Shown in pieces: positions 21-33,038 of a stretch of DNA of 64,000 nucleotides (its first letter is position 1; every line of letters begins with the position of its first letter). The notes beneath the pieces are model-generated. The model had not been told where the DNA came from and ran no database searches. It saw only the letters and a program-made list of their open reading frames with translations. A program made the position numbers and the translations under genes. Source of the DNA: Solen grandis (taxonomy: Eukaryota; Mollusca; Bivalvia; Adapedonta; Solenidae); NCBI GenBank assembly GCA_021229015.1, contig CM037794.1, positions 38,722,815 through 38,786,814 on the forward strand, read 5' to 3'.

Positions 21-3000
21 GTAAATAGTTCGAGTTTCTATCTATCTACCTGTCCGTCTATCTGTCTATCTACCTGTCTGTCTGTCCGTTTGTCTGTCTC
101 TGTGTCTGTCAATCTCGTAAAAAAAAAAATGCGTAACTTTATCTTCACGTATTATATCTATATTTCAGCGCCAAGTACGATCTCAACCTGGTCAAGCGGA
201 AGCTCGCTAAACATCTGGGCATGCATGACCAGGAACGTGGATTCGTGGTGAAGAAATGCAACTCCTACGCGTGCCTCTCGACCGACAAATTTCGTATTTT
301 AGATGTCAGCCACTTTCTTGCTCCGGGTACCTCCTACGCCGGATTCCTGAAAGCCTACGGGGTCGAGGAAGCCAAAGGTTTCTTCCCCTACGAATGGCTG
401 GATAAACCGGCAAAGCTGGAAAGCACGGAGCTACCTCCCCACGAAACCTTTTACAGCGCGCTAAAAGGAAAAAATATCAGCCCGGAGGAGTACGCGTACT
501 GTCAAAAGGTATGGCGGGACGAAAAGATGGTTACGTTCCGGGACTTTCTGGTCTGGTACAACGACCTAGACGTGGGTCCCTTCGTGACGGCCGTGGAACG
601 CTTGCAAAAGTTTTATTTCGAAAAAGACATAGACGTCTTGAAGTCCGCCATGAGCGTTCCCGGCATCGCCCGCCAACTTTTGTTCAAGTCGGCGAGAGAA
701 TTAGGGGCCGAGTTCTCCCTCGTAGACCAAAAAAATGCCGACTTGCACACCACCATCAAAGACAATATCGTCGGAGGTAAGCGTTTATTTATTATCGCGC
801 TTTTTTCGTCTTAAATTTATTATTTACATACTTTATTATAATTATTATTATCATTATTATTGAGCACGCGACGCTGGTAGCGCTTCTGTTCACGCATGTC
901 GTTTACGTTTTAGGTCCCTCCATCATATTTACTCGACATCACGAGGCGGGCAAGACTAAAATCAGGGGAGGTAAACTTTGCCAAAAAATCGTGGGGTACG
1001 ACGCCAACGCCCTCTATTTATGGGCCATCGGGCAGCCCATGCCGGAGGGTATGTTCGTGCGTCGCAGGGCCGAAAACGATTTTAAGCCGGAACACAGGGA
1101 CCACTATATGCAGGCCTTCAACTGGTTAAATTATTTAATCAAGTTCGAAGGTAAAAACATACTGCATCAACGAAACGGAGGTCAAGAGGTCCGGCTGGGC
1201 AAATACCCGGTTGACGGCTATGACCCGGATACTAACACCGTCTACGAATTTCAGGTATATTTGTGTTTTTTCTTTCTTTACATACATTATTTATTTATAT
1301 ACTTAATAACAATATATTCATTTTTTTATTACTTAATAACTTTTAATACCTATTTATTTACGTAATGACTATATATTTTAATAATATCGCAGGGTTGTTA
1401 CCACCACGGCCACGAGTGCGACGTCACCAAAGACGTTAAAAGCGAAAAGTGGCACTCGAACAAGGACTCCCTGAAACGAAAGACGGGAGAAAAAGTAGAT
1501 CAGCTCCGTCGACAGGGCTACAACGTCGTGGAGATGTGGGAATGCGAGTTCCGGGACTTTTGCAAATCCCACCCTAAAATCTACGACATCCGGGATCAGT
1601 GTCGCCCCGCCTTCAGCCAAAAGCATCGGGGTACCGTGTCCGAAACCCAAATTTTGAACGGGGTCCGTTTCGGACATTTATACGGTATGGTCGAGTGCGA
1701 TTTAGAGATCCCGGAAGAATGGAGCCCCGAGTTTGCCCACGTGCCAGTGTCTCCCCGACGCTATTTCGAAGAAATGTGCCCCATTTTCTGCAATACGGAT
1801 GTGGGGTTTGACGATATCGGGGAACACATGCAGGCCCACGTCTGGCAGTACCAGCTTTCCGATAAACCCAGACGGCTCCTCGTGGGCGGAACCAAAGCCC
1901 GCCAAATCCTCCTGGCCACGCCCCTCCTCAAATGGTACTTGGACCACGGTTGAAAGTGACCAAAATCTACCAAGTGGTCGAGTACCGAAAAATGTCCTGT
2001 TTCGAGACCTTCGTACAGGAAGTCAGCGCGGCGAGACGTTTGGGCGACTCGAATCCCGGCTTAGCAATTTTTGCCGACACAATGAAACTCATTGGGAACT
2101 CAGCGTGTGTATATTATTTATCAAATATTATATATATTATTTATTAATATGATAAATATATACGCGTTTATTATTTACGAATATAAGTAAGCGACAAAAA
2201 TGTATTGATATAATAATTTTGTCTTAACGCGTATTTTTTTTTTATATATATTAAAATATATTTATTTAAATAATTAAATTCGTTTCAGTTACGGATCCGT
2301 CATTATGGATAAGACAAAACACCGCAAAGTGTCATACGTGGAGGGGGAAAATAAGGCGTGTTTCGAGGTCAACAAGCCTCAGTTTAGACAAACCACCTGT
2401 CTGGACGAGGTGGACCAGTACTACGAGGTCGAGTCGGCTAAAACGAGCATCAAACTCGACCTCCCCACGCAGCTAGGCTTTTTTATACTGCAGTACGCCA
2501 AACTCAGGATGCTGCAGTTTTACTACGACCTCTTGGATCGATACGTGGACCGCTCCGACTTCGAATATCTGGAGATGGACACGGTAAGTTATGTTTTAAT
2601 GCACTACCACAGCGATTTCGTACTTTTTTTGTCAGGGTTAATTCACTTTTTGTCACATCGTTTTGATATTTGCGTCGATCATTTCAATATTTGTCAATAC
2701 CGATTCATTTTTTGTCACGGTCAATTTACTTTTTGCGCGTTTACACGTAAATCTCCATAGACAGCGTTTCATTTTCTGTCAACGTTAATTCACTTTTTGT
2801 CATATCGTTTCAGATTTTGTCAGCGTCGTTTCGCTTTTTGTATCGGTCATTTAATTTTTTTTTCTTTGTCAATGTCGTGCCCTTTGATCGTTCGTTCTAT
2901 TTAGTATATTTTATATGTTATCTTTTAAGGACTCCGCCTACATGGCCCTGTCGGCGTCGAGTCTCCGGGAGGTCGTAAAGCCGGAAATGATGGCCGAGTA

Positions 3001-3600
3001 CCAGCGTGGACTCACGGGATTATGCGACGACGAGTTCGATCCCGTTGGAGACCGCTGGTTCCTAGAGAATGCTGCGCGAAACACGCCAAATTTGATAAAA
3101 GAGTACCGGGACTCTTCAAGACGGAATACGAGGGGGATGCCATGATAGGTCTCTGCTTCAAGACCTATATCGTGAGCAAAACCGTCCCCTCGAAAGCCAC
3201 CAGCGCCGTCATGACCGCCTCCAAGCTCTCGCGTAAAGCCAGGGGACTAACGCTCAAGAAGAATCATTCTCGCCCTGGTGACACGGATGTAAGTTGTTCC
3301 AAGGATTCGAAGCGCCTGTTTAAGGAACCCCTTACTATATTTAAAAAGGTCCTGCGTACCGGAAAGTCGGCTTCCGGTCGTAATAAGGGGTTCCGGGTTC
3401 GAAACAACGGGATATACAGTTACAACCAGACCAGGTGCGGATTCTCTTATTTCTACTGTAAGCGGCGAGTGTTGTCCGACGGAATTCGCACAGTACCCTT
3501 GGACATCGTTCTGTGCCCCGTGAGACGCGGATCTGAACTCGGTCTCGATCATAATGATCAGAAATTGGTCGAGATGCTCGAGCGTCAATTTAAATTATGA
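1..3600 (+). CDS. polB: Polinton protein-primed DNA polymerase B, 6 exons, two frame breaks
   Basis: Family-B polymerase that copies the element using a terminal protein primer. Exons by GT-AG sites: 1-20, 169-776, 914-1254, 1393-2104, 2289-2583, 2930-3600; phases agree across all junctions. Motifs in order: ExoII-like GFN/SAKYDLN across the first junction, ExoIII YNDLD near 556-570, palm motif A DANALYL near 1000, motif B KLIGNSA/YG split by intron 4, motif C MDT/DS split by intron 5, and FKTY near 3160. Exon 4 breaks frame near 1950 and exon 6 near 3055-3065; both exon lengths fit loss of one base. The N-terminus lies off the left edge. Stop at 3598-3600; a possible polyadenylation signal AATAAA is at 3903. 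It is either a pseudogene or intact with consensus errors. Confidence 0.93.
21..168 (+). other. polB intron 1 with TGTC/TATC microsatellite
   Basis: GT at 21 and AG at 167-168. The first half is a degenerate run of TATC, TGTC and TGTCCG tetramers (35-115), followed by an A-run and a pyrimidine-rich acceptor. Confidence 0.75.
169..776 (+). CDS. polB: polB exon, exonuclease/linker region
   Basis: Starts after tatatttcag and ends at the donor gtaagc. Carries the polymerase-family blocks FLAPGTSYAGFLKAYG and GFFPYEWLD and the ExoIII-like motif WYNDLDV. Confidence 0.92.
777..913 (+). other. polB intron 2
   Basis: GT (777) to AG (913), AT-rich with an ATT-repeat stretch. The splice restores GGPS in frame. 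Confidence 0.85.
914..1254 (+). CDS. polB: polB exon with palm motif A
   Basis: Carries GYDANALYLWAI, the Dx2(S/A)LYx catalytic motif A holding a metal-binding Asp. Ends YEFQ before the donor gtatat. Confidence 0.92.
1255..1392 (+). other. polB intron 3
   Basis: GT (1255) to AG (1392), AT-rich. The splice joins YEFQ to GCYHHGH, a junction block typical of Polinton polymerases. Confidence 0.85.
1393..2104 (+). CDS. polB: polB exon, thumb/palm, frame break near 1950
   Basis: Starts GCYHHGHECD and ends in the first part of motif B (KLIGNSA). The frame ending at 1953 (LKWYLDHG then stop) and the frame starting near 1945 (LKVTKIYQVVEY) belong to one exon. The exon length fits one missing base. 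Confidence 0.9.
2105..2288 (+). other. polB intron 4, splits motif B
   Basis: GT (2105) to tttcag (2288), strongly AT-rich. Splicing joins NSA to YG and so completes the Kx3NSxYG motif. Confidence 0.85.
2289..2583 (+). CDS. polB: polB exon between motifs B and C
   Basis: Starts YGSVIMDKTKH and ends EMDT, the first half of motif C, before the donor gtaagtt. Confidence 0.92.
2584..2929 (+). other. polB intron 5, splits motif C, degenerate tandem repeat
   Basis: GT (2584) to AG (2929). The body is about ten diverged copies of a TTCAnTTTTTGTCA-like unit spaced roughly 25-30 bp apart (2620-2860). Confidence 0.8.
2930..3600 (+). CDS. polB: polB last exon, C-terminal palm/thumb, frame break near 3060
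   Basis: Starts DSAYMALSA (second half of motif C). After the break near 3055-3065 the frame runs ECCAKHAKFDKR, GLFKTEYEGDAM, then GFSYFYCKRRVLSDGI, a block typical of Polinton polymerases, to a stop at 3600. Length fits one missing base. Confidence 0.9.
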
Positions 3601-4015
3601 AAAAAAAAATAGTACGATTGTTTTGTTTTCATACGTATATATATATAATATTTGAACTTGTTATTGTTGTACAGCTCGTAAACTCTTCACATGCGTGTGA
3701 AAAATATTTTTCGAATCGCAGCGCTGTTGTATAAAATGTTTGCATTCGCATAAATGCGTAATGTTTTATTATTGTTGTATTGTTTCAATCTTTTTATATA
3801 TCCTTATTGTTATTTTTATCAGTTTGTATATAAACTTTGACGTTTGTAAAATTGTTATCGAGTGTATATAATGTATGTTTATTTACCGAAAATCGCTTAT
3901 ATAATAAATCTTGTACCCGTATTATCGCTTTTTTCAACTATTTTATCTCCCAGTACGTAAGAAGAGGTACGTGTCCTACAAAATAAATTTGAAATTGATA
4001 TAAACGCGTAAGAAC
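3601..4015 (+). other. polB 3' flank and upstream region of the membrane-protein gene
   Basis: AT-rich non-coding stretch. It holds AATAAA at 3903-3908, a candidate polyadenylation signal for polB, two copies of a CGTAAGAA motif (near 3955 and 4006) and TATAAA near 4000. No ORF of note. Confidence 0.5.
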
Positions 4016-4288
4016 ATGAATGATCAAGATAATGCTATTCCCGAACGGGAGGTATTACTGAATCTTCCGAAACCGGACGATGAAAGCCTGAGTGATAAGT
4101 GGCATTTATTAGGAACGAGAGTACCCCAGGCAGAGATTGTGTATTTTTCTCAGATGATTATCGTTTACGTTATCATTATTACGTCGATAGTCAACTTATC
4201 TCTGCAAAACGGTTCTACGGAGTTGTGGATCAGTTTACTTAGCAGTTGTATAGGCTACGCTCTACCTAATCCTAAACTGAAAAAATAA
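4016..4288 (+). CDS. Polinton small membrane protein (90 aa)
   Basis: Function unknown; small transmembrane proteins at this position next to the packaging ATPase are common in animal Polintons (recalled, not searched). An acidic N-terminus of about 45 residues precedes a hydrophobic segment (about residues 45-63, MIIVYVIIITSIVNLSL) and a second weaker one (about 70-83), then a short basic tail. Its stop codon overlaps the ATPase start by one base (TAATG at 4286-4290), so the two are probably expressed from one transcript. A virion membrane or holin-like role is possible but is only a guess. Confidence 0.75.
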   Translation: MNDQDNAIPEREVLLNLPKPDDESLSDKWHLLGTRVPQAEIVYFSQMIIVYVIIITSIVNLSLQNGSTELWISLLSSCIGYALPNPKLKK

Positions 4289-4931
4289 TGTTTCCGTTCG
4301 AACCTTGTTCCAGCGTGTGTATAAGCGCTCAAACGGGAGCCGGGAAAACGCAATGGGTCTATAAATTTCTAAAAATATACGAGCAATGTATAGCGAGGAC
4401 CCGCCAGTATCCATTTTGTATTGTTACGGAATCTATCAACCGCTTTATGACGTCATGGAGAGAGAGATTCCGAATTTTACGAGTAAATTAGGACTTCCCA
4501 CGGCGGAGGAACTAGATAATTTCACGGAAGACAGACGACACAAACTGATCATAATAGACGACTTAATACAGGAGGTGGTGCGACACCAGGAAATGGAACT
4601 GTTATTTACCCAGGGTACGCATCACAGACGCGTCAGCGTCATTTTACTTTCGCAAAATCTTTACCCCAGAGGCAAACACGCCAGAACTATCGCTTTAAAC
4701 ACGTGGTATCTCGTGCTGATGAAAAATTTGCGGGATGTCTCCCAAGTGAGTGTCCTCGGACGTCAGCTCTTCCCGGGTAAAGTTGGGGGCTTTATACGGG
4801 CTTACCAGGATGCCTTAAGCGAAAAATACGGTTATCTCGTGGTAGATATGAGTCCGCACGGTGATGATAGATATCGATTGCGCGCCCGAGTCTTTCCGGG
4901 GGAAGATACTGTCGTCTATCGATTGACGTAA
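4288..4931 (+). CDS. FtsK/A32-type genome packaging ATPase, frame break near 4385
   Basis: DNA-packaging motor ATPase of the FtsK-HerA superfamily. The first frame (4288-4491) carries Walker A SAQTGAGKT at residues 13-21. The second (from 4386) carries Walker B KLIIIDDL and a following SQNLYPRG sensor-like region, ending at 4931. The switch falls around 4381-4390, and the total length fits one missing base, so this was a single protein of about 214 residues. It sits in the usual Polinton place between the membrane protein and the core-like protein. It is intact apart from that break. Confidence 0.92.
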
Positions 4932-4965
4932 GAAGGATATACACGCCTTTCGACGTAAGAACACC

Positions 4966-5286
4966 ATGGAATTAATGAAACAGCAGCAACATTTTCTACG
5001 CTTATACGCCCAGACGACTACGGCGCAAAGAAAAGCGATATTAAAAACTGTTACAAAGCCGCAGTTAGGGGCCTTGCGCCAGATCGCTTATAATATTATC
5101 AAATTTACTATACGGTTGTCATCGGAAGAAAAGAAAAAACTTAAACGAGAAAAACGTTTCGTGCACTTATTAGCGAGAAAGTCTGCCGGATACGAACAGA
5201 AAAAGCGCGCCATCGTGAACAAGCAAGGACTTATTTCGATATTAGTAAACTTGGCGCTGCATTATTTGGATCCCTTGCTGCGGTAA
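4966..5286 (+). CDS. Polinton small basic core-like protein, copy 1 (106 aa)
   Basis: Small Lys/Arg-rich protein of a family widespread in Polintons and adintoviruses, where it has been compared with the adenovirus core protein pX; I recall this and have not searched it. A helical N-terminal half (FLRLYAQTTTAQRKAILK..., residues 10-50) is followed by a basic stretch (KKKLKREKRF) and a C-terminal block QKKRAIV..GLISILVNLAL. The ATG follows a GTAAGAACACC motif. Its stop overlaps the next ATG by one base. A probable role is DNA condensation or minor virion component. A second, diverged copy lies at 9459-9806. Confidence 0.75.
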   Translation: MELMKQQQHFLRLYAQTTTAQRKAILKTVTKPQLGALRQIAYNIIKFTIRLSSEEKKKLKREKRFVHLLARKSAGYEQKKRAIVNKQGLISILVNLALHYLDPLLR

Positions 5287-5841: not shown

Positions 5842-6273
5842 TTAAAGTATAATTCTTCGCGCTTTCGCGTAATTGATTATAAAGTTTTCGTTCTTTTCAC
5901 GATTAGTGACACAAAATGGTTTCGTAATATCTATCAAAGACTTTTCGCTACACCGTTCCATTATATAATACACGCAATACAGTCCGCAGGTAGAGGAATT
6001 TGGAGCTTGTATGGGGTCGCGTATCATCCAGTACGGTCTCCTTAAGACGTTTTCGAAACCCGCTCGGTAATATTTAGGCTCGTTTCCGAGGGAATCGAAA
6101 TACTCGTAAGGCCCCTCGTTCGGAAAGTAGAACACGGTCCAATGCTCTCCCGGGCCGTCGCTGGAATCGGTGTTACAAACGACGAAACGCCCCCTTTCTT
6201 CGCGTAGCTGATCGGAAGCGCGTATTGTGACCGGATAGGCCCGTAGTATTTTCTCTAGTTGATAGTTATTCAT
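5842..6273 (-). CDS. Adenain-type cysteine protease (143 aa)
   Basis: Maturation protease of the adenovirus/Polinton type, expected to process capsid proteins. All catalytic residues are visible: His44 in GEHWTVFYF, Asp60 in YEYFDSLG, Gln89 and Cys96 in QAPNSSTCGLYC. The length is normal for Polinton proteases and somewhat shorter than adenovirus adenain. Its ATG overlaps the capsid-protein stop by 4 nt (ATGA), so it is translated downstream of the major capsid gene. The reading frame is intact. Confidence 0.95.
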   Translation of the reverse strand: MNNYQLEKILRAYPVTIRASDQLREERGRFVVCNTDSSDGPGEHWTVFYFPNEGPYEYFDSLGNEPKYYRAGFENVLRRPYWMIRDPIQAPNSSTCGLYCVYYIMERCSEKSLIDITKPFCVTNREKNENFIINYAKARRIIL

Positions 6274-7526
6274 TTCACGAATACGGCCCTAGAGTGATCT
6301 ATATTTAGAATTTCCGGAAACTTCGCGTACATCACCAATGTCACGCTTTCCGGTAAAGCGGTGGCAAATTTCAGCTCTAAACGACAGTGCCCTTTTCGCT
6401 TGGTGTTGAAGGAATAATAGGGATCGATGTCTAGCACGTACAAACAATATCCCTTCTTATATTCGTCTACGGACACGTTGACGTCATTTCGAAATGAGGT
6501 CAGGGTTCTGTAGCAGTCCACGTACTGATTTCCTCCGTAATTCGGCTGTAAAGGCTGCGATGGATACGATTGACCGTCCACGAAAAAACCCACTGAGGTG
6601 CAGTCGTAATGTTTGAAATTAAACGGGTTTTTATGGTAATCCCCGGTATACGCGGCGCCGGGTACCAAACCGATGATGAGTTTACTGGGTACCAAGCTCT
6701 GAAAGATGTCATCAGCCGTATAGTTGTAGGATCCGGCTGCTATGGCCGTAGTTTTGATCTCGGAGCGGAGATACGGGTAAACAGCCGGTCCTTCTTGTAA
6801 CAGTTTCTCGTGCGCAACGACCACCGCTCCGTTAACGCGTTGTACGCACAGTTTGAATTTAGCGTCTATAATTTGTACCTTGATAGACGGAGATAAAATA
6901 TCGGTGATGATTCTAAACGCGTCGGGGGCTGGCCACAGCTGAATACCGATGTGAATTCCGTTGATCAGTAATTTTGATTGTTGAAACAGGTCGAGAAGCA
7001 GCGGACCTTCTAAATTGACAGTCGCTCCGCCTAAAGTTTTCTTGTATCTCAAAAATAATCCGGTGTTTTTTCCGGTCTTAACATCATTGTCGTCTAATTC
7101 CGTTTCTTTGTAGAAAAGCTGGCTAGTAAGTACACCGTCTTGCATCTGTCGGTTCGTTTTCAGTATCGTATCGATATAGGCTTTATACGGATAATTATTG
7201 CCCATATGAGAGAGCGGCGTCTGTTGCAAGCTAACGTCGACTTGTTTAAAAATGGTGTGTAAAGGGAGGTTAACGAGTCCCGCAGTTTCAGTATCCGCGA
7301 TAGGCGTTCCATCGGCGTCCGTGAGTCTCAGTTTTAGGTTCAATAAACTTCTCTTCAGGTCCACGTAAGCGGAGGATTGAGCCGGGATGTTAAATTCTAT
7401 GGCTGAATTGTGCGTTATCTGATTAATGGGTCGATATTCTATCCATTCCCGAGACTGGAGCGAAGGATCGGAAGGGGCTGATACAAAGAGAGATAATTCT
7501 TGCTGATGACAATCTTCCCTTTCCAT
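6270..7526 (-). CDS. Polinton major capsid protein, hexon-like (418 aa)
   Basis: Major capsid protein of the double-jelly-roll family. It contains the N-terminal signature EYRPINQITHNSAIEFNIP, followed by NLPLHTIFKQVDVSL and NNYPYKAYIDTIL, which I recognise from the animal Polinton capsid family often annotated as F54H12.2-like. The C-terminal part has YSFNTKRKGHCRLELKF and ends ILNIDHSRAVFVK. The frame is complete and of normal length. It lies directly upstream of the protease (4-nt overlap) and 3 nt after the stop of the preceding gene, implying co-expression of virion genes. Confidence 0.95.
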   Translation of the reverse strand: MEREDCHQQELSLFVSAPSDPSLQSREWIEYRPINQITHNSAIEFNIPAQSSAYVDLKRSLLNLKLRLTDADGTPIADTETAGLVNLPLHTIFKQVDVSLQQTPLSHMGNNYPYKAYIDTILKTNRQMQDGVLTSQLFYKETELDDNDVKTGKNTGLFLRYKKTLGGATVNLEGPLLLDLFQQSKLLINGIHIGIQLWPAPDAFRIITDILSPSIKVQIIDAKFKLCVQRVNGAVVVAHEKLLQEGPAVYPYLRSEIKTTAIAAGSYNYTADDIFQSLVPSKLIIGLVPGAAYTGDYHKNPFNFKHYDCTSVGFFVDGQSYPSQPLQPNYGGNQYVDCYRTLTSFRNDVNVSVDEYKKGYCLYVLDIDPYYSFNTKRKGHCRLELKFATALPESVTLVMYAKFPEILNIDHSRAVFVK

Positions 7527-7529
7527 CGT

Positions 7530-7914
7530 TTACACTTGCGTTTCTTCGTCGTATCTATAGCGTTTTGCGTGCCTCGGCGCCGACTTTTTCACCCTCTTAC
7601 GTGTACTGCCGAACCCCTTCTTACGTTCTTTTTCGCGGCGGATATCGGATTTGGCTATTTCTAAAGCTTGCGCGACGGGGGTGACGAGCTGAACGGCTGG
7701 TTGGTTTTCGGCGTTTCTCATTCTCCTTTCATCTTCTTCTTCTTTTTCTTTCACTTTCCTGTTTTTGGCGCCAATACGACGACATAGCGTCCCTGGTGGT
7801 CGGGTTGAACGTAACCGTCCCGCAAATCCTTGAAATGTTGATACCACTTGTCATAGTCGGGAACGTAAGGCACCCACTCTTGACGCTTATAATCGTACAC
7901 TTCTATCGAACCCA
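7530..7914 (-). CDS. Conserved Polinton protein, frame break near 7755-7775
   Basis: Begins at the ATG at 7914, inside the end of the penton-like gene (12-nt overlap). The first frame (7753-7914) reads MGSIEVYDYKRQEWVPYVPD, then WYQHFKDLRDGYVQPDHQGR; the second (to 7530) reads a Lys/Glu stretch, then QLVTPVAQALEIAKS and a basic C-terminus. Both blocks belong to one protein family recalled from animal Polintons, function unknown. The break lies between them; total length fits one extra base or two missing. The basic tail could bind DNA or act as a nuclear signal. Confidence 0.8.
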
Positions 7915-8328
7915 TCTTTTCTTAAAGTGTAAGACGCAGTGTAATGTCGGGAAATCGTCAAATATGACCGGTTCCAAATTTTCGTTTAATAATCGAAATC
8001 CCAACTGATGTCCCAAATTTCTTCTTACTCTTACGTATGTGGGTCGCGTATACGTCGCGTTCAAGTATTTGTTGAACTTTCCTCTGACTTCCACGTTCTT
8101 AAGCGCCGGGACTCGAGCGCGATTAACGTATTGCTCTTCTAGAAAGTCGCCACATAAATACACTCTGTCGCATTTCGGCGTAAAATTGCAAATGAGAGAG
8201 ATTTCTAACAGCGCGCATTCCCAAATTCCATCGGAAAGCAAAGCGCCAGGCGTATTTTCCCAAAACTCGGCGGGATTCTTTCTCTCCTCCGAATCCTTGT
8301 TAGACAAGTATAGTATGATATCCGACAT
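7903..8328 (-). CDS. Penton-like minor capsid protein candidate (141 aa)
   Basis: Position (just upstream of the major capsid gene block) and size fit the single-jelly-roll minor capsid or penton protein of Polintons. Alternating hydrophobic segments suggest beta strands (LSDGIWECALLEISLI, DRVYLCGDFLEEQYV, YVRVRRNLGHQLGFRLL, PTLHCVLHFKK). The ending with PTLHCVLHF resembles the conserved C-terminus of the Polinton protein I recall in this place. No direct homologue can be named from sequence alone; a structure prediction would settle it. Complete frame with ATG at 8328. Confidence 0.55.
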   Translation of the reverse strand: MSDIILYLSNKDSEERKNPAEFWENTPGALLSDGIWECALLEISLICNFTPKCDRVYLCGDFLEEQYVNRARVPALKNVEVRGKFNKYLNATYTRPTYVRVRRNLGHQLGFRLLNENLEPVIFDDFPTLHCVLHFKKRWVR

Positions 8329-8370
8329 CTTGCTTCGAAAGGATGGTTGTACGGAGGCTCTTACGCACCT

Positions 8371-9462
8371 TTAAAAGTCTCGACATCTTTCGGGGGAAAT
8401 AAAACTATTAAATTTCTTGGGCCAACCCATCCATTTCACGAGTACATCGTTTCCCGACTTTTTCAGGATTTTTTCGATTCTGAACGTAGTGTCTTTATCC
8501 ACCGTAATTTTCGACATTTCGTTGTCGTAAAATGTACCGTCAATCGGTTCTCCCTGAAGATCTTTTACTTTGTAATACGAAATATTCTGTTTTTTACCCC
8601 TTTCCGATACGATAAAGTATTCCGTAGTCCAGCGTTCATCGTATTCTCGTTGAAAAGGCCTCCTCAAATGCGATAGGCGGACGGTATCTCCCACCTTGAA
8701 ACGATACGGTGTACCGGAAAGATTCGCTCGACGTTTAGGTTTCTTTAACGCGTCATAGTTTCGTTGCCATATATCTATCTCGTCCTGCCGCTTTACGGAA
8801 ACGGGCGTCTTTTTAATGGTTCTGTGATAGGTATGATTATAACTTCGCGTCACGTCTTCTAAGACATCGATCCATCTGTGACTTTGCTTCGCGGTCATAT
8901 AGCGGGTTAATTTCATTTTGATAGTTTTTATGGCTCTTTCGGCCACGGCGGCCTTGGTTTCGTTACGCGAATAAAAATGTTTAATTTCTTGCGTTTTCAG
9001 TACCTTCTGAAACGCTAGACTTTTAAATTCGCTGCCGACGTCCGTTCTCAAACATTGCGGTTGGCGACCCTCATCGATAATAGCTCGAAAGGAGGTGGCA
9101 ACTTCGTGTCCTCGCACCGTTTTCAACGGTTCTGTCCAAACGTATTTGGAAAATATGTCAATCACGAGCAGAAAATAACCGTAACCATCATTCTGTTTCG
9201 TAAACTGGTTCATATACGCCACGTCGGCTTCCCACTGATAGTCTATATACGGCGATACGATGCGTTGGCGACTGTGTTTTCTGACGATAGCTTTGTGTAC
9301 GGTATATGTCTCTTGTTTCTTTAACCATTTTTCAATTTTAGCTTTATTCAGTACAAATTTCCCTTCTTTCCTCACGGCTCTGTACAATTTATCCGAGCTA
9401 GAATACGACGCCGGGTGAGAGGGGTCGTAATAAATGTTCTTCAAGTAGTCTTCGTACCTCAT
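8371..9462 (-). CDS. Retroviral-type integrase with chromodomain (363 aa)
   Basis: DDE integrase that inserts the element. Catalytic residues: Asp80 in WEADVAYM, Asp141 in LRTDVGSEF and Glu175 in AVAERAIKTIK, with 33 residues between the second and third. The N-terminal part has the Polinton-type KIEKWLKKQETYTVHKA segment. The C-terminal 60 residues form a chromodomain (FRIEKILKKSGNDVLVKWMGWPKKFNSFI), known to target related integrases to modified chromatin. Complete frame. Its ATG overlaps the stop of the upstream core-like gene by 4 nt. Confidence 0.96.
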   Translation of the reverse strand: MRYEDYLKNIYYDPSHPASYSSSDKLYRAVRKEGKFVLNKAKIEKWLKKQETYTVHKAIVRKHSRQRIVSPYIDYQWEADVAYMNQFTKQNDGYGYFLLVIDIFSKYVWTEPLKTVRGHEVATSFRAIIDEGRQPQCLRTDVGSEFKSLAFQKVLKTQEIKHFYSRNETKAAVAERAIKTIKMKLTRYMTAKQSHRWIDVLEDVTRSYNHTYHRTIKKTPVSVKRQDEIDIWQRNYDALKKPKRRANLSGTPYRFKVGDTVRLSHLRRPFQREYDERWTTEYFIVSERGKKQNISYYKVKDLQGEPIDGTFYDNEMSKITVDKDTTFRIEKILKKSGNDVLVKWMGWPKKFNSFISPERCRDF

Positions 9463-9806
9463 GACTCGCGCGCGGTGCGGACCTCGTCCGTTATGACTTG
9501 TATCAAATAGAGGGTCCTCAATAAGGCGGGGATGAGAGAATGATTGCGTCTAACCAAAGATTTCTTTCTACGCGGTGAAACGTCTGAGGATGCTAGCGTT
9601 CTTAGCAGCGTTCTTTTCCGGCTAAATAGCTGGACGTCCCTTCTCGCGGGAGCCACGACGCCATTTACCACCCGGAGCGCGACTTCGCTCTCGGCTTCTA
9701 GTTGACTGGACGTAATATTCATGAGCATATTTTTTCTCTCAGACGCGGGGGCGTCCTTAAGATGCAGCAAAAAGCGTATATTAAGGTAAACTTTGGAGCC
9801 TTCCAT
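9459..9806 (-). CDS. Core-like basic protein, copy 2 (115 aa)
   Basis: Aligns along its length with the protein at 4966-5286: FLLHLKDAPASERKNML against FLRLYAQTTTAQRKAIL, then NITSSQLEA against TVTKPQLGA, and RRKKSLVRRNHSLIPALL against EQKKRAIVNKQGLISILV. Identity is low, but the order and spacing of blocks agree, so I call it a diverged paralogue of the Polinton pX-like core family. It is 4 nt overlapped with the integrase and thus sits in the early or replication block rather than among capsid genes, which hints at a non-virion role. Confidence 0.6.
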   Translation of the reverse strand: MEGSKVYLNIRFLLHLKDAPASERKNMLMNITSSQLEAESEVALRVVNGVVAPARRDVQLFSRKRTLLRTLASSDVSPRRKKSLVRRNHSLIPALLRTLYLIQVITDEVRTARES

Positions 9807-9829: not shown

Positions 9830-10354
9830 TTAGCTTCTTACGCTATACAGTTCCAGTTCGATAAGCGTAGGATAGATGACGTCATCAAATTCGAATACTC
9901 TCTTTATACCGGTAATGATAATTTTACCCGTATGGAAACAACTGAATGTGATACCTTTTCGTTTAAGTATCGCTGCGGGGAATAGATCGGGTTCGTAGAC
10001 GGCTTGTCTTTCCATTACTAGTGTCTGTAAATTTAACCCGGAGCTCAGCGTATGATAGGCGGATGCTGTCAGCAACTTGACGTCAGTGAATTGTACTGGA
10101 TAACCTAATTTTTGCAAGCAGCGAGCGTATCTCCTTAATCTTTTTATACCTTCTTTGAAACAGCGGGCTTTACCGTTACAGTTAATGACGCCGTTAGGAA
10201 AAACCAGGCAATTTCCGCCTATTTTCTTGTGTTGCCACTCGAGCCCCGTGAATCTATCGGGATGATATTTAACGTTACCTAATTGCCGGCATAACTGCCT
10301 TAAATCGAAGGAATAACGTAGCTTAGCGCTACACACGACGTTCGTTATAATCAT
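9830..10354 (-). CDS. TATA-binding protein homologue (about 174 aa)
   Basis: Two-lobed TBP core. Lobe 1 shows NVVCSAKLRYSFDLRQLC, YHPDRFTGLEW, CLVFPNGVINCNGKA and RYARCLQKLGYPVQF, matching the cellular motifs YNPKRFAAV, SGK.VCTGAK and KYARVVQKLGFPAKF. Lobe 2 shows YEPDLFPAAILKRKG and SCFHTGKIIITGIK, matching YEPELFPGLIYR and SGKVVLTGAK. The open frame extends upstream to 10420 but with no ATG; the first ATG is at 10354, so the protein is almost exactly one TBP core with no N-terminal tail. A TATAAATA box lies at 10410-10417, about 56 nt upstream. Expected role: binding TATA promoters of the element or of the host. Complete frame, low identity to cellular TBP. Confidence 0.88.
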   Translation of the reverse strand: MIITNVVCSAKLRYSFDLRQLCRQLGNVKYHPDRFTGLEWQHKKIGGNCLVFPNGVINCNGKARCFKEGIKRLRRYARCLQKLGYPVQFTDVKLLTASAYHTLSSGLNLQTLVMERQAVYEPDLFPAAILKRKGITFSCFHTGKIIITGIKRVFEFDDVIYPTLIELELYSVRS

Positions 10355-10409
10355 GTTATCTCTTTCGAATCCGTTGTTAAACTGATATAAAAGAGATGTA
10401 AAACCCGGG

Positions 10410-10417
10410 TATTTATA
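10410..10417 (-). promoter_or_regulatory. TATA box of the TBP-like gene
   Basis: TATAAATA on the - strand, a full-consensus TATA box, 56 nt before the ATG at 10354. Confidence 0.6.
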
Positions 10418-10647: not shown

Positions 10648-11188
10648 CTACTTCGGATAACACTCCGGACATTCCGATACGTTATGATTGTCCATCGTAT
10701 AGCAGGGGATCACATCTCGAAGTTCGGCTACGAAACTGTCGATCGTACGAAGCCCGTTTCTCAGCTCTCTGTACTGTTCGAGCGATAGCGAAACGCCTTT
10801 TCTGGTGGCGCAAATCTCCTCCGCCCCTTCTGGTAGCCAAAATTTTCGAATATCCACGCAGTTGAATCCGCTCTGCGCGGTTACGTACCAGTTTCCGCCG
10901 AGGTGATGTCGATAGAACGTGTCTTCTCCCAATTCCATTCCCCCGATAATCGTATCGAGGTGCGGTAGAAAAGCGTATAGTTCGTTACATCTCTGTAACG
11001 TTAACGCGATCGCGTCTTTGGTCGGAATTTTTCCGGCTAACATACTTTCTCACGTGAATGTATGTGGTTCCATTAAACACGCTGTCAAACAGAAACAGTC
11101 CTTTTCCGATGTCTTGTAAATAACGAGCTTTCTGATTTTCATTCAGAACCCTGTGGGGCGCGTCAGTCAGTTGAATTCTGGTAGACAT
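10648..11188 (-). CDS. Tandem PC4/Sub1-type ssDNA-binding protein, frame break near 11030-11050
   Basis: Two PC4 (p15 transcription coactivator) domains in one gene. Domain 2 is intact in the frame 10648-11043: GGNWYVTAQSGFNCVDIRKF, then ATRKGVSLSLEQYRELRNGL, matching the PC4 core V(D/R)IREYY..PTKKGISLTLEQWKAL. Domain 1 is split: its first half, GKGLFLFDSVFNGTTYIHVR, is in the upstream frame and its second half, IPTKDAIALTLQRCNEL, starts the downstream frame. Total length fits one extra base or two missing. I prefer the Met at 11188 over 11227 because a TATA-like sequence then falls about 58 nt upstream. The C-terminus ends in a Cys/His pattern (CYTMDNHNVSECPECYPK). Likely role: transcription coactivation or ssDNA binding. 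Confidence 0.85.
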
Positions 11189-11356: not shown

Positions 11357-11665
11357 CTATATATCGAAGTGACAGGTTCGCGATTCGTTTTCGCGCTTTT
11401 CGCCACCGATCATTTTCAGAAACTCGCAAGGTGACCACTGCCGATGCTCCCGATATGGATCATCACGCTGTTCCCAAGCGTATAAAGATAGTTTGCAGCA
11501 AAAACAAGTAACCTTGTCGTATTGTCCCGTGTAAAAAAATCCGTTTCTCGCCAATGCGAACGGCTCTGGTTTTATTTGCTTTGGCCAAAACTTAAACGTT
11601 TCCAATCGGTCGTCGTACAGCTTCATGTCTCTCCGATTCCAGTCGCTCGCGTCCGGCACGTCCAT
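11357..11665 (-). CDS. BIR-domain (IAP-like) protein (102 aa)
   Basis: One baculovirus IAP repeat fills the protein. Seen: RLETFKFWP at 20-28, GFFYTGQYDKVTCFCC at 42-57, WEQRDDPYREH at 64-74 and Cys80. The zinc ligands are Cys54, Cys57, His74 and Cys80; the last spacing (five residues between His and Cys) is one shorter than the usual six. No RING or second BIR. BIR proteins block caspases or act in other signalling; viruses such as baculoviruses carry them. Bivalve genomes are rich in IAP genes, so capture from the host is plausible. A TATAAAT box lies 52 nt upstream. Complete frame. Confidence 0.88.
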   Translation of the reverse strand: MDVPDASDWNRRDMKLYDDRLETFKFWPKQIKPEPFALARNGFFYTGQYDKVTCFCCKLSLYAWEQRDDPYREHRQWSPCEFLKMIGGEKRENESRTCHFDI

Positions 11666-11757: not shown

Positions 11758-12174
11758 TTACATAGCCTTCAATTCGCATAATAACATAAGAAAATGCTGT
11801 TCTGCGTAGAGATCTTTACATCCCAGAGTATGTTCTATTCCCTTACCATTTTTCCATAGAAAAATACGCCTGATGACCACATTATCGGTAGCGACATATT
11901 TCATCCATTCTTCCATTATGAGCGCTTCGACGTTAATTTTAACACCATATTTTTCGAGTAAACGTATTAAAAACGTTTTAAATTGTCCGAAAGTGGACTT
12001 TTCGCTTAACCATCGTTTAATATACAATTTGGTCTTCATCGTTGGTTTTCTACACGTTTCGTATAACGCCATTTTGTACATCTCGTATCCGAGAATATGT
12101 TTCAAAGATATAAACGGTTTTTCTACTAGGAAATGGTATATATCGTCGCATACGTGGACGGGTAAAACGTCCAT
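11758..12174 (-). CDS. Unknown protein, predicted helical (138 aa)
   Basis: Not recognised. It starts with the ATG at 12174 and is the outermost gene of the element, about 90 bases from the BIR gene. It is rich in Leu, Lys and aromatic residues, with no signal peptide or membrane segment. The run of amphipathic stretches (YIHFLVEKPFISLKHILGY-like start, KLYIKRWLSEKSTFGQFKTF, LIRLLEKYGVKINVEALIM) could form a small helical bundle. The middle part faintly recalls a death-fold domain (W..S.....F...L..L..YG), which would fit next to an apoptosis inhibitor, but the match is too weak to call. Confidence 0.6.
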   Translation of the reverse strand: MDVLPVHVCDDIYHFLVEKPFISLKHILGYEMYKMALYETCRKPTMKTKLYIKRWLSEKSTFGQFKTFLIRLLEKYGVKINVEALIMEEWMKYVATDNVVIRRIFLWKNGKGIEHTLGCKDLYAEQHFLMLLCELKAM

Positions 12175-15094: not shown

Positions 15095-16110
15095 GCATAT
15101 ATTCACAGCCACCAATGAGGGGACACCCTATGCAACAAGGACCTCACCCTGCTATGAACTACCAAACGTCTTCACAATATCCAGATCAGTATTACCCAAT
15201 CAACGCGACACCTTCGTATGTAAGAATGCCACGACCACGACCACGCGGCTATCCGCCACCTTTACTTGCTAACCCTCCAATGCAGCAGCCCATGGGTAAT
15301 AATTGGCAGATGCACCCTCAGCCTCGGTATCCACCCTATACAAATATGGAGAGAAGTTCCAGCATGAGAAGTTTAAATAGCTTGGATGGAAGTCATGATT
15401 CATATAGAGGCTATCCGCCACCTTTACTTGCTAACCCTCCAGTGCAGCAGCCCATGGGTAATAATTGGCAGATGCACCCTCAGCCTCCGTATCCACCCTA
15501 TACAAATATGGAGAGAAGTTCCAGCATGAGAAGTTTAAATAGCTTGGATGGAAGTGAAGATGGATATAGAAGACAAGAAAGTGATAGAATGTATGATAGA
15601 AATATTGAAAATCTTGAGCATAAATTGTCTGAAATAAAAAATGAAATTGACAAAAGATATAAAAAGATGGATGCAAAAAAGAATGAAATGAAAAAAGACA
15701 GGACAAGAGGGGAAAGGAATAATAGGCAAGAAACCAATAAAATTGATGAAAATGAACAAGCACCTGAGTCAGGAGATTCCAGAGCTTCAACAAAGAACAG
15801 CATATCATCAGCTGACCTTGGTAAAATTTCTTTGTTAACATTATATAACCGGAAGAAAAGGTATAAATTACGTCTTTCAGAAATGAAAAAAGATTCCAAG
15901 TTTTCAGTAACAGATATTGAAAATCTTGAGCATGAATTGTCTGAAATAAAAAATGAAATTGACAAAAGAAATAAAAGGATGGATGCAAAAAAGAGTGAAG
16001 TGAAAAAAGACAGAGCTAAAAAGAACATTTCATCAGTAAGAAAAGGAAATGTGAAGAAACAAACTGAAGAGGAAGCAAAGTGGGAGGATGACAGTGATAG
16101 CAAAAAATAA
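15095..16110 (+). CDS. ZAP/PARP12-like gene, Pro-rich and coiled-coil exon with internal duplications
   Basis: Encodes a low-complexity Pro/Gln/Tyr-rich part, then Lys/Glu-rich sequence predicted to be coiled coil. Two internal duplications are plain. A 57-residue unit (RGYPPPLLANPP to SLNSLDGS) occurs twice in tandem, at about 15243-15412 and 15410-15583, almost identical. A unit with IENLEHKLSEIKNEIDKR occurs at about 15601-15700 and 15916-16010. The frame stops at 16110 beside an A-run (16111-16130), and a Lys-rich frame continues to 16361, so a homopolymer frame error or an unseen splice is likely. Confidence 0.6.
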
Positions 16111-16383: not shown

Positions 16384-17403
16384 AGGAATGTAAAAAATAT
16401 GCTAGAGAATCTGTTGATTTAAATGTGAACAAAAACAGTTCTAAACAGAAATATACTGAAAAGAATCGGAAGCTTTCAGATCCACTTATAAGCCAGACTA
16501 AAACTGAAAAACCTAATGACAAAGAAAGCAAAGACAGAAATGTGCAGACAGGAAAGGTTGAATTCAAAAAGGGTATGCAAAGGAAAGGCTCACAGAATGA
16601 GCCAAATCCAAATGAGGTTTTCAAATTACTTGTTCAGAAAATGAAAGGGGAATGTGAACCTGGGAGGCTCAAGTCTGAATCTAATTTGTTTGCAGATGAC
16701 TTTAACATCGATGGCTGGTTCAATCGTAATAGGAATAAGTTTATTCAAATAAGAAGAAATAAAAAGCTGGTGTCAGTGAGGGCGTATATTAAAGATGTAT
16801 CTTATTGCCTAGATTATATACATGTCAAGTCATGCAGGGGAAAAAATTGTTCAAGATTTCATGTCTGTAGAGATTTCATCACCGGATGTTGCAAGATGTC
16901 TGGTGACTGTAAATTTTCTCATGACTTTTTCGATGAGAATAATGGGAACTTGGCCAAATGTAAAGATTATGGTCTGAGCAATATATTCAACAATGAAGAT
17001 GTACGTACCATTTTACACATGCGGTTTCCGGAAGTTTGTGATGCCTGGGATGAAAATGGGGCTTGTGAGAACAACTCTTGTGTTAAATTGCACATGTGTA
17101 AGAGGTTTTTGCTGGGTAAATGTTTAGATGATGAAGCCTGTCCATTTGACCACAACCGAATGTCTGAGCATAATGGTCCTATCATCAATGCTTATGACAT
17201 TGCGAATTACACCGATAAGATGTTTGCTAGAATAGTCTACTTACCAAGAAGGGAATTGAGAGTACACAGTCATACTTCTTCTGAGGACAAACATGATATC
17301 ATGCCAAATAAAGCAAGTCCGCCAGGGGCATTGCAAAAACCTCCTCCACCCAAAAGGAGAAAGGAGAGAAAATTCGAAAAGAATGCAAATGTTCATCGAG
17401 TAG
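16384..17403 (+). CDS. ZAP/PARP12-like gene, exon with four CCCH zinc fingers
   Basis: Encodes four CCCH fingers in two pairs: C-x8-C-x4-C-x3-H (CLDYIHVKSC..NCSRFH), CRDFITGCC...CKFSH, C-x8-C-x4-C-x3-H (CDAWDENGAC..SCVKLH) and C-x7-C-x5-C-x3-H (CKRFLLGKC..ACPFDH). The linker with an Ile/Leu-rich segment followed by FPEVC and the paired layout match the RNA-binding N-terminus of ZAP (PARP13/ZC3HAV1) and PARP12, which bind foreign or CpG-rich RNA in vertebrate antiviral defence. The exon ends at a strong donor gtaagt (17404). A Pro/Lys-rich tail follows the fingers. No WWE or PARP catalytic domain is seen before the gap, so the 3' end of the gene is missing or elsewhere. Confidence 0.75.
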
Positions 17404-18678
17404 GTAAGTGCTTGAAATGTTTATTTAGACATCTTTGCTTCCAATAGGGAAAATATTGAAATGGTTCCGTCGCAGCTGAGTGTGGACCATTTTTGTTGAG
17501 TTGGTTGTGCAACTGTACTCCAGTAATACTTTAATGATGGCTAAACAAAGTAATAGAAAATTGTATTGGTATAGCTCCTTTGCTTGGCGCTCAGTATATA
17601 AGGGTAGTTCCAGGACTGTTTGGCTTGGTGTGAGGATAATTTGACTGGGTGTGGTATCATGACACTTATCAACGGCATAATCATGAAGTATGGCAGCACT
17701 GTATTTGTCTCAGGTAGAGATTTTTCAAATGACTAAAATACTGGAAATGGTATGTTGACCCAACAATCAGACTTATGATGGCCTAAATCTCTCTTTTTAC
17801 CTTTACTTGGATGATGACACAAAAAAAGACCAAAAGGATATTGGAAGCATTTTCATTGCCTATACACACAACTGTTTGTTGAGATGACAACTAGCGGAAT
17901 TATAGTAATTTTCAGCATTTCCATATAACTGAAAGACTATTGTAGTGCACTTCATGTTTATTCTCCATAACTCAAATTTCCATTAATTGCAGTTATCTTT
18001 TTAGCTTACCATAGCACAACATGCTCAATGTAAGCTATTGTGGTCACCCTGTGTCTGTTGTCACGTTATGACTTAAAAGGATGATAGACCTCTTGAAAGA
18101 AAATTACAGTACACAAGAACATTAACTCTTCACATCATAGTTTGGAGTTTTGCCGTTTGTTTAATTTATGCTTATCCTGCCAGAAAGCGTAGTTCTGGGA
18201 GCATGATCCATTTCCAGTGGTTTCTTGTTGGAGTTGTTCCCCTTTGTTCCCCTTAAAAACTCCTGTTCTACTATTGCTATTGAAATTAAAATTCATTTAT
18301 GGAAAGAAATGAATGAGAGAAAATGTCATAAATTAACCCAATTTTTTCCCTTTTACAATTTCTTGACTGCAAGATAACTCCGGTTCTACTTATGCTATTG
18401 AAACAATTTTCAGTTATTGAAATTGGTAAGAGGAAGTGTCAAACACGAGATCAATATGTCTTGGCAGAACTTGATCAATATAGTTAACCAATTAACTATT
18501 TCCTCCATCAATACTGATGATGTAATTAAAGACTCTATGAATATTAAACAACAAAAACTAGATTTCGTTTGTCCCGGACAAACGGTAGGGCTTTTTGCTT
18601 TGTAAATCAATTTAACTCAGATCAGCTGAATATTCTTTTTACCTGTTCTATGTTATCGTCCGATTGTGCATGGTGTCA
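17404..18678. other. Intron or intergenic sequence downstream of the CCCH exon
   Basis: No supported exon. Holds the SINE-like repeat at 17561-17745 and a mollusc-type TAGCTTACCATAGCAC repeat near 18005. Ends at the scaffold gap. Confidence 0.5.
17561..17745 (+). repeat. Dispersed SINE-like repeat, copy 1
   Basis: Matches 32192-32405: TTGGTATAGCTCCTTTGCTT, TTGGCGCTCAG, GTTCCAGGACTG, GGTGTGAGGATAAT, GTGGTATCATG and a tail with CAAATGACT. Diverged copy. Confidence 0.7.
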
Positions 18679-21198: not shown

Positions 21199-22298
21199 AT
21201 GATGGCGGCGAAAAGCCAACAACCTCAAACAACCCACAGCCTCGCCGTCATCTCCTGGAATGCAAACTCAATTAAAACTAATAGAACTAACAAAAAAGCT
21301 TTTGAGCTACAAAATTTTCTAAGCACTAAAGAATATCCAATAGATGTCATTTGTATTCAGGAAACTAAGCTCAAACCAAATCAAACTGCACCGAAACTGA
21401 AAGGATATCAGAATCCAGTCTGCAAAACTAGGTCAAATGGGAATATTGGGGGGAGAGTATGTATTTACATCAGGAATGGTCTCCAATACACTGAAATAAA
21501 CATACCAAATAATAATGAAATTGAAACATGTGGCATCAAACTATATGGCCACAATGACTCAATAGAAATATATGTTTATGTGCCCCATACCAGATTTAAC
21601 ACAAAAACTATGATGAAACTTTCAAAAATATAGGTAAAAACTCAATTTTAATGGGAGACTTTAACCTTAAACACGTTATGTGGAACCCTGTAGGGGATTT
21701 CAGATGTGACGGCGAGGCTGAACACCTCCTTAATTTCTCCAACATTAAAAACCTAAGCATAATCAATGATGGTCAAATCACTAGGACAGCAAATACCCAT
21801 GGTCACCAAGATAGCGCAGTAGATCTGGTGCTAGTCCCTCGGAAACTACAAGCCCAAAGTGAATTTTACACCATAGACAACTCACTAGGCAGTGACCATC
21901 TCCCAATTGAAACTAAAATAACATTCAATGGCCAATGTGAAAAGATAAACTCAAATGCAAAATGGAACTTTAACAAGGCTACACATGAAAACTGGTCAAA
22001 ATTAAAAAAACTAGCAGAAACTCAGCTAGACTATGCAATCAGTGAAATTGATGTAGAAACCAATTTTAACAAATTCTACAACATACTCCAATCTATCCTG
22101 CATGAAACTATGCCCCATAAGAAACAAGCCAAGAAAGTCAGAAACCCTCCTGTACCATGGTGGACTGAGGAATGCGATAAAGAAATTAGAAAAAGAGAAA
22201 GGCTAAGGCACAGGCTAAAGAACAAAAAGAACCCATTAGATTATGAAACTTATAGACAAGCAAGGAATGAAGCTAAACAAATTATAAATAAAGCCTAA
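21199..22298 (+). pseudogene. LINE ORF2, apurinic endonuclease domain
   Basis: Endonuclease motifs in two frames: SWNANSIKTN, DVICIQETKL and GYQNPVCKTRS..GGRVCIYIRNG in 21199-21633, then MGDFNLKHVMWN, VDLVLVPRKL and GSDHLPI in 21651-22298. This order (N, QET, GDFN, SDH) is that of non-LTR APE endonucleases, which nick the target DNA. A stop or shift near 21633 separates the parts. Confidence 0.8.
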
Positions 22299-22349
22299 AA
22301 AGAAAAATGGGAAGAATTTTGCTCTGGTATCACTAGTAAACAAACTCAA

Positions 22350-23660
22350 GGAACTATGGCAATTTATTCAGAAAATAAAGGTAGACCTCCAACTAGCAAC
22401 TCCCCCTTTGTCATAAATAACCAGGTCATAACTGAATCTTCTGACAAGGCCAACGCACTAGTACAGCATTTTCAACATGTTAGCAGTGACTCAGACTTCA
22501 CTCCAGAATTCATACAACAGAAACACACAGTAAAAATTTTTTTAGACAACTACCTGAAACTCACAGAATCTGAAGAAAGATGGGATTTGCCCTATAATAC
22601 TGACTTTTACTATGCTAGAAATGGAAAAAGCCCTAAAAACCACAAAAAATGGTGCCCCAGGAGAGGATGGCATCCATTACTCAGTTTTAAGAAACTTACC
22701 AGCAACGGCTAAACAAACTCTCTTAGCCCTTCTCAATAACTCATGGCGAACAGGCAAAACCCCTGAATCATGGAATGAATCTGTTATAATCCCACTCCTT
22801 AAGCAAAAAGCCAAAAGAAAGCCCAGGGTCATATAGACCAATATCACTTTACCTCGACTTTCACAAAACTTTTACAAAAATGATTAAACCTAGACTCTGC
22901 AGTATCTGGAGGAAAAAACTTAATTTCTGATATACAGTCTGGGTGCAGATCTCACCACTCATGTGAGGACAACCTTGTGAAACTTGAAAATGATATCAGA
23001 AAACCCCAAGCCAAAAACAAATATGTAGTAGCAGTCTTTCTTGATCTTTCCTCTGCTTTCGACAAACTCTGGAGCACAGGAACCATCCTAAATCTCAAAA
23101 ATAGGCATAGAAGTAGAATCTGCTTTGCTAGGGGACTTCCAAAAAACAAAGAAAAATAAAAGTTAAATAGGGAGGAGCCACGTCTGAAACCGTTGTAACC
23201 AAAACGGATGCCCCCAAGGGGAGTGTGCTTTCACCCTTTTTATTCTCTCTCATAATGAATACATTTAGAGAAAAATCATTAAGCATAATAAACTGCAAAA
23301 AAATTAATGAAATCAACTATCAAAATTTTGTTGATGATGGGCAATTTGGACCAGGCATACACTCTATCAACAAAGGAATACAGAATATCCAACTACCCCT
23401 AAACGCAATAGAAAAGTGGAGAAAAAAATTTGGCTTTTTTATTAACCCCCTAAAAACCCAAACAGTCATTTCCGCAAAGAACGTCACACATTTGATGAAA
23501 ATTAGGCCAATATCCCAAAAACTGAAACTCTGGGGCAAAATCTTAGAATATCGACTCTGCCCCCCTACTAGGAATGACATTTTACAAGCAATTAAAAAAG
23601 GAAAAATCAAATACTTAACATCATCAAAAAATGTGAACGAGATTTGAACCAATAAGATGC
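22350..23660 (+). pseudogene. LINE ORF2, reverse transcriptase domain
   Basis: RT blocks across several frames: KNGAPGEDGIHYSVLRNLP, PESWNESVIIPLLKQ, FLDLSSAFDKLW (motif A with catalytic Asp), GVLSPFLFSLIMN and YQNFVDDGQ (motif C; FVDD instead of the usual FADD). Broken by at least four frameshifts, so inactive. Confidence 0.78.
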
Positions 23661-32405: not shown

Positions 32406-32741
32406 TAACAAACTATCCTTGTATTTTAGTATTTATTTTAGTATCTTATTCTTTCCTTTTGTCCGTTTGGATCGAGCTGGTAATCAACCCTTTACAAAAA
32501 ATATATCCGAAACTTCTTTGATCCTGTATGTTTTAAAAACATCCTACTGTACACATAAATATCAACAAGGATGGACACAAAGTTGGGGGTCGACTCGCTT
32601 CAACTCGATTTTTACAAATCATTCAAATTAAATCAATAAAATTTACATATGGAATCAGTAAAATATACTTTAGTCTTTTGAAATATACCAAAACATTGTG
32701 AAACTTATCTCCCTAGGTCTGCTTATTCATTTGAAAAACTT

Positions 32742-32992: not shown

Positions 32993-33038
32993 GGTGTGTG
33001 AAGTTAGCGCGTAGATTGAAGATCGTAAATCAACACTA

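Follow-up and report, generated by a model that had tools for sequence, protein, structure and literature searches.

A Polinton of a bivalve encodes a two-lobed TATA-binding protein whose presumed base-reading residues differ from those of cellular homologues

Does a Polinton in a bivalve genome carry a TATA-binding protein (TBP) of its own, and if so, what would it do for the element? The question arises from one open reading frame in the window, the 64-kb stretch of DNA analyzed here, which starts with an ATG at 10354 on the minus strand, has a stop codon that ends at 9830 and requires no intron. Its 174-residue product matches the Pfam TBP family in two stretches (PF00352, E = 1.2e-23, with 83.2 bits where the cut-off is 22.9), and a PDB sequence search aligned human TBP to residues 4-164 with E = 3.1e-19. 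We modeled the protein with AlphaFold from an alignment of 100 family rows, yielding a mean pLDDT of 95.2 and a pTM of 0.84, and a Foldseek search of the PDB with this model returned solved TBPs as best matches (E = 2.6e-16). All 44 PDB matches with E ≤ 0.001 were TBP-containing chains, with TM-scores on the query of 0.81-0.92, and comparison of the model with solved TBPs places the saddle fold over the full length of the protein. Like the window gene, most relatives start at the core domain, and the length is 170-176 aa in 66 of the 100 rows of the family alignment. Positions 9830-10354 of the minus strand encode a complete two-lobe TBP. An earlier note on this DNA had described an intron-less TBP gene that begins at the core domain and contains both lobes, and had named the absence of a TBP fold as grounds for rejecting the idea; the description is borne out, and the predicted structure has the fold.

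The gene lies, as that note had also proposed, between a PC4-like gene and an integrase gene. The features of the element, in order of position, are as follows.

137..3600, plus strand: remains of a PolB gene in several frames; PF03175 match below the cut-off
4016..4288, plus strand: short ORF (TM) ahead of the ATPase gene; TAATG overlap
4288..4931, plus strand: putative packaging ATPase in two frames; Pox_A32 match below the cut-off
4966..5286, plus strand: ORF106b, 106 codons
5286..5597, plus strand: ORF of 103 codons; TAATG overlap with the preceding ORF
5842..6273, minus strand: putative adenovirus-type protease; Pfam match below the cut-off; ATGA overlap with the capsid gene
6270..7526, minus strand: major capsid protein (MCP), double jelly-roll fold by structure model
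7530..7921, minus strand: small ORF106 between PX and MCP, in two frames
7903..8328, minus strand: PX-like ORF, putative penton, syntenic with a Solemya Polinton
8371..9462, minus strand: rve integrase (1.1e-10, 42.1 bits against a cut-off of 32.6)
9459..9806, minus strand: ORF115, 115 codons; ATGA overlap (4 nt) with the integrase start
9830..10354, minus strand: TBP gene, 174 codons, ATG start, intact
10410..10417, minus strand: TATAAATA box upstream of the TBP ATG
10648..11188, minus strand: PC4-like gene (PF02229, 9.5e-7), split, with the N-terminal part (ATG 11188) in another frame
11357..11665, minus strand: single-BIR (IAP-like) gene (PF00653, 8.1e-23)
11758..12174, minus strand: 138-codon ORF without a Pfam match above the cut-off

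The PC4-like, BIR, integrase, protease-like and capsid genes share the strand of the TBP gene, and the plus strand carries the ATPase-like gene and the PolB remains, both with Pfam matches under the cut-off: PF04665 scored 16.7 bits against 22.8 in the former, and PF03175 scored 20.6 bits against 25.8 (2.3e-4) in one of the six PolB pieces scanned. The model of the MCP (418 residues, pLDDT 78.2) matches the double jelly-roll capsids of Sputnik (5.0e-16) and mavirus (4.8e-14). PF00770 in the protease-like ORF also remained below its cut-off (E = 0.0011, 19.1 bits against 21.3), as did a chromodomain match at the C terminus of the integrase. The left end of the Polinton appears to lie upstream of the window start, probably together with the N-terminal part of PolB, and some of the PolB frame breaks may be introns. 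The PC4, ATPase and PolB genes are each spread over several frames while the TBP frame is intact, and from this decay the window copy may be dead. The PC4-like neighbor named in the earlier note is present, with the correction that this copy has it divided between frames.

For comparison we scanned genome contigs for Polinton loci, which returned a single locus (L001), and queried viral contigs with the TBP, the capsid and the integrase, among which no locus was found. L001 is a Polinton at the end of the Solemya velum gill symbiont scaffold NZ_JRAA01000003.1 and is probably host DNA in a bacterial assembly. It is syntenic with the window element, with identities of 42% for the integrase, 30% for the PX-like ORF, 47% for the capsid and 36% for the protease, the last being a protein that itself has no Pfam match. 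A 152-aa ORF of this Polinton, PC4-like by eye, gave no Pfam match at E 0.01 and was rejected as PC4. Both Polintons have ATGA or TAATG overlaps between neighboring genes, at 4288, 5286, 6270-6273 and 9459-9462 of the window and at 1907-1910 and 3546-3549 of the Solemya element, and this arrangement suggests coupled translation in an animal element. We also considered ORF115 and the 106-codon ORF as paralogues, an idea rejected on a BLASTP comparison (E = 0.39). The BIR gene of this TBP-bearing Polinton is a possible apoptosis blocker. Elsewhere in the window are a broken non-LTR retrotransposon (21199-23647, plus strand) with two endonuclease matches above the cut-off and a reverse-transcriptase match below it, an array of 21-bp units that are palindromic and CGCGAAA/TTTCGCG-like (32700-33033), a foldback element with 444-nt arms, 95% complementary, around a 165-nt spacer (58755-59807), and a host-like ORF with PARP12-type CCCH zinc fingers (16425-17447, plus strand) preceded by a duplicated 162-nt segment (15247-15570).

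To place the TBP among its relatives, we searched 5.8 billion proteins, and 99 of the 117 candidates obtained (E up to 10) were TBP homologues, all with PF00352 and 48-65% identical to the window protein. Their named sources are Mercenaria, Pinctada and two metagenome-assembled genomes (MAGs; Sedimenticola sp. and Ca. Thiodiazotropha sp.), both of which we take to contain bivalve-host DNA. Up to 288 member sequences stand behind single homologue clusters, as expected of a mobile gene. Linkage to other Polinton genes was assessed by pairing homologues on equal-sized contig records from a shared source, against 100 size-offset controls. For the capsid we used the best 120 of 285 homologues, of which 118 were usable for size pairing; the PC4-like gene had 27. 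Among the matches listed there were 9 TBP-capsid pairs, compared with 0.27 expected (maximum of 2 in the 100 offset controls), and TBP paired with PC4 6 times, compared with 0.10 expected (maximum of 1 in the same number of controls). A single capsid-PC4 pair among the matches listed, against a control mean of 0.08, was reached by 7 of the 100 offsets, so the case for a contig with all three genes, which size pairing places on a 6,239-bp record, rests mainly on both TBP pairings.

Three of the TBP-capsid pairs were discarded: one on a 1,729-bp record is a chance pairing, the record being too short for both genes (166 and 420 aa), and two on records of 3.6 and 62.7 Mb were set aside as weak. 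With records over 3 Mb left out here and in the TBP-PC4 set, this places TBP with capsid, among the matches listed, on 6 contigs of 4,455 to 13,318 bp, and TBP with PC4 on 5 contigs of 2,048 to 7,391 bp. One TBP-capsid pair, from the MAG named Sedimenticola sp., has the neighboring locus tags ABW072_02025 and ABW072_02035. The evidence from equal-sized records is indirect but repeated, and it indicates that TBP is a recurrent Polinton gene.

Could the gene nevertheless be a recent retrocopy of a host TBP or TBPL1 captured by one element? The lack of any required intron would fit such an origin, and NCBI names one of the homologues TATA-box-binding protein-like 1. Against it, the identity of the window protein is only 28-32% to the TBPs of human, Arabidopsis and yeast, and 34% to human TBPL1. 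In a tree of 28 sequences (LG+G4; 7 references, eukaryotic TBPs and TBPL1 among them, with 21 family rows sampled from the 100), the family forms one clade, which a branch of 1.2 substitutions per site with 100/100 support separates from the references. The linkage of TBP to Polinton genes on several contigs likewise speaks against capture by a single element. We therefore give the retrocopy reading almost no credence, and the restriction to one element that the earlier note had offered as a counter-explanation fails on the 99 homologues, their single clade and their linkage. The placement of the family relative to TBP and TBPL1 drew support of only 53/38, and the family profile scores TBPL1 lowest among the seven references (77.3 bits, compared with 91.2-105.6). 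As judged from these alignments and the tree, the Polinton TBP is not a recent host retrocopy, and an ancient capture from a host is likely.

We then compared residues of the family with those of cellular TBPs, using roles in base reading, DNA kinking and contact with TFIIB or TFIIA that are described for cellular TBPs and that we presume to hold here. Counts below are over 100 family rows that are related by descent and do not represent independent events. The kinking phenylalanines are kept (F197 in 96/100 rows, F214 in 100/100, F288 in 97/100 and F305 in 82/100), the fourth being replaced by histidine in 12/100, and the window protein has all four (Phe-35, Phe-52, Phe-125 and Phe-140). The TFIIB contacts are also maintained, with E284 in 91/100 rows, E286 in 92/100 and L287 in 85/100; in the window protein the equivalents are Glu-121, Asp-123 (a conservative change at E286) and Leu-124. 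The base-reading positions differ from the canonical minor-groove set (N167, V169, V220, T222, N257, V259, V311 and T313) at four places, with V220 replaced by Asn or Gln in 94/100 rows, T222 by Asn or Gln in 96/100, N257 by Thr in 99/100 and V259 by Ser in 95/100. In addition, V301 is mostly Asn, Thr or His, and L303 mostly Cys, Ser or Thr. The ten base-reading positions spell NVVTNVVLVT in six cellular TBPs, three from eukaryotes and three from archaea, the exceptions being N220 in Methanocaldococcus and S313 in Pyrococcus. The commonest Polinton signature is NVNNTSNCVT (33/100 rows), and positions 220 and 222 change together, as NN in 75 and QQ in 17 of the 100 rows. This pattern suggests that the Polinton TBP would still bend DNA and recruit TFIIB, yet would read another sequence.

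The reading that we consider probable is that this is a long-standing Polinton TBP gene whose product would act with host TFIIB as a general initiation factor for the genes of the element itself, likely at non-TATA promoters. The protein would bind and kink the promoters of the element through its four phenylalanines, and the kept E-P-E/D-L stretch would dock host TFIIB and thereby host Pol II; it is from the kept TFIIB-contact residues that we infer a role in Pol II initiation. Pfam scans of the ORFs of the element found no RNA polymerase among them, so the element would have to use host Pol II. That the protein reads a core element other than TATAAA is less certain, and is suggested by the family-wide replacement of base-reading residues in both lobes.

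A TBP with its TFIIB-contact residues kept and a changed DNA-reading face might instead interfere with the host, as a decoy that would sequester host TFIIB or sit on host promoters and so damp host transcription. The replacement of the TFIIA-contact residue E191 by Arg or Lys in 90/100 rows is compatible with such a role, and the adjoining BIR gene hints at interference of the element with host processes. A pure decoy would have no need of a changed DNA face conserved within the family, and the kinking phenylalanines are kept in most rows; the link by equal-sized records to PC4, another initiation cofactor, also speaks against a decoy. We regard interference as unlikely.

If the protein were an ordinary TATA-reading TBP, it could simply supply an extra dose for TATA promoters, its own TATAAATA included. 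The four phenylalanines of the window protein would suit this, as would the TATAAATA at -63 before the TBP gene and a TATAAATG at -58 before the BIR gene. The earlier note had placed the upstream box 56 nt from the gene, which is correct for its last base (the first lies at 63 nt), had drawn its span up to 10417 so that the box falls within it, and had suggested self-regulation through it. As a signal the box does not stand out: each strand of the element has two TATAAAT[AG], coding and opposite alike, with an expectation of 1.0, and 271 of 1000 resamplings reach 2, so that the boxes before TBP and BIR are at chance level. Self-regulation through TATAAATA is thereby undermined, and is further disfavored by the DNA-reading residues of the family, which differ from those of TATA-reading TBPs. 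The TATA-reading residues are replaced in 94-99 of the 100 rows and are nearly invariant in the six cellular TBPs, and an ordinary TBP is in our judgment decidedly improbable.

What else might the protein read? A candidate target is a TAAGA element found 36-41 nt before the ATG of structural genes, with distances taken from the 8-mer's first base. The coding strand of the window element contains the form CGTAAGAR nine times, the opposite strand not once (shuffle mean 0.70, maximum of 4 in 300; 0/1000 resamplings reach 9), at the following sites.

3956..3963, plus strand: CGTAAGAA, 60 nt ahead of ATG 4016, with a second copy at 4007-4014
4927..4934, plus strand: CGTAAGAA, overlapping the stop codon of the ATPase gene and 39 nt ahead of the ORF106b ATG
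4954-4961, plus strand: second CGTAAGAA copy before ORF106b, intergenic
7618-7625 and 7594-7601, minus strand: two CGTAAGAR ahead of the MCP ATG, within the upstream coding region
8028..8035, minus strand: CGTAAGAG, 120 nt ahead of the ORF106 ATG and within the PX coding sequence
8358..8365, minus strand: CGTAAGAG, 37 nt before the PX ATG, intergenic
9835..9842, minus strand: CGTAAGAA, in the 3' end of the TBP coding sequence and 36 nt ahead of the ORF115 ATG

The Solemya Polinton has TATAAGAG five times on the coding strand and not on the other (shuffle mean 0.06, maximum of 1 in 300), at -39, -36 and -41 in three of six genes, PX among them. The locus is truncated ahead of the TBP position, and TATAAGAG and a TBP gene are not seen on one molecule. 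The promoter evidence comes from these two elements: of their 20 gene starts, 6 have TAAGA within a single 8-nt slot that lies 32-39 nt ahead of the ATG. The motif was first spotted by eye, which makes the targeted counts post hoc but not the k-mer searches. When all 5-mers were searched in all 8-nt slots, 1 of 300 null sets was as good as 6/20; a positioned 6-mer search was weaker (22/300). Without position, the best 6-mer was not significant (83/500), and the best 7-mer, CGTAAGA, was (2/500). Many gene starts have no such element: the 36-41 slot is empty at 11 of 14 starts in the window, that of TBP among them, and at three of six in the Solemya Polinton, and 8 of the 14 window starts, including TBP, integrase and protease, have no CGTAAGAR within 130-150 nt. 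Four of the nine sites are wholly coding (9842 in TBP, 8035 in PX, 7625 and 7601 in ORF106) and that at 4927 lies over a stop codon, so codons may explain some of them.

The element might also work in RNA, through stop and re-initiation or as a splice site, or as a transcription start motif, in each case unrelated to TBP. GTAAGA resembles a 5' splice site, and TAAG resembles the late start motif of baculoviruses. At three of the six well-placed sites (4927, and 956 and 1449 of the Solemya Polinton), the TAA doubles as the stop codon of the gene upstream, and the overlaps between neighboring genes resemble those of coupled translation. Yet the sites at 8365 and at 4049 of the Solemya Polinton are noncoding and keep the 37-41 nt spacing, and TATAAGAG in the latter element lacks the GT of a 5' splice site. 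We hold this explanation to be a real possibility, if not the one we favor; it concerns the promoter part only and is compatible with the general initiation factor proposed for the protein. More tentatively, and from sequence comparison, bivalve Polintons may have a private promoter code in which the re-coded TBP (subfamilies NN, QQ and others) would co-evolve with a TAAGA-type element, an early phase being driven by host TBP and followed by a capsid program that would use host TFIIB and Pol II.

Viral TBPs are known from large DNA viruses, in which, according to the excerpted text of PMC11410667, three families had been recognized and four were added. The corresponding text of PMC10132985 reports a TBP in 59% of mirusvirus genomes, as well as mirusvirus RNA polymerase subunits, and that of PMC10675990 describes TATA-binding proteins in putative mirusvirus-derived elements of an alga. 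In the partial texts retrieved by literature searches for Polintons with TATA-binding protein, TATA-box or PC4, we found no report of a Polinton TBP. A term search found TATA and TBP unmentioned in the Polinton, PLV and adintovirus papers PMC10120064, PMC8097293, PMC10328495, PMC8363768 and PMC4642659, and neither TATA nor transcription in PMC4028283. Within this literature, TBPs of large DNA viruses are known, and a TBP in a Polinton is new. If the proposed role is correct, giant viruses are not alone in carrying a general Pol II initiation factor, which is then present in a small Polinton-type element of an animal too, and Polintons gain a concrete, testable expression program. The family would also offer a natural collection of TBPs altered in their DNA-reading residues as a probe of how TBP reads DNA. 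This question has otherwise been approached with altered-specificity mutants made in the laboratory.

Compared with the eukaryotic TBP core of human, Arabidopsis and yeast, the Polinton protein has the same full-length fold with two repeats, the four phenylalanines and the TFIIB contacts. It differs in its low identity to these proteins, in having no N-terminal extension and in the family-wide replacement of V220, T222, N257, V259, V301 and L303. It shares an ITNVVC stretch at the start with TBPL1/TRF2, to which its identity is 34% for the human sequence; TBPL1 keeps only one of the four phenylalanines, whereas the Polinton TBP has all four. With the TBPs of nucleocytoviruses and mirusviruses it has in common that a virus encodes the TBP fold (E = 2.8e-12 and 20% identity for the best BFVD match), although those viruses are large, unlike the window element. 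Finally, the element shares with Polinton/Maverick elements the rve integrase, the double jelly-roll capsid and putative protease-, ATPase- and PolB-like genes, and to this described set it adds genes for a TBP, a PC4-like protein and a BIR protein.
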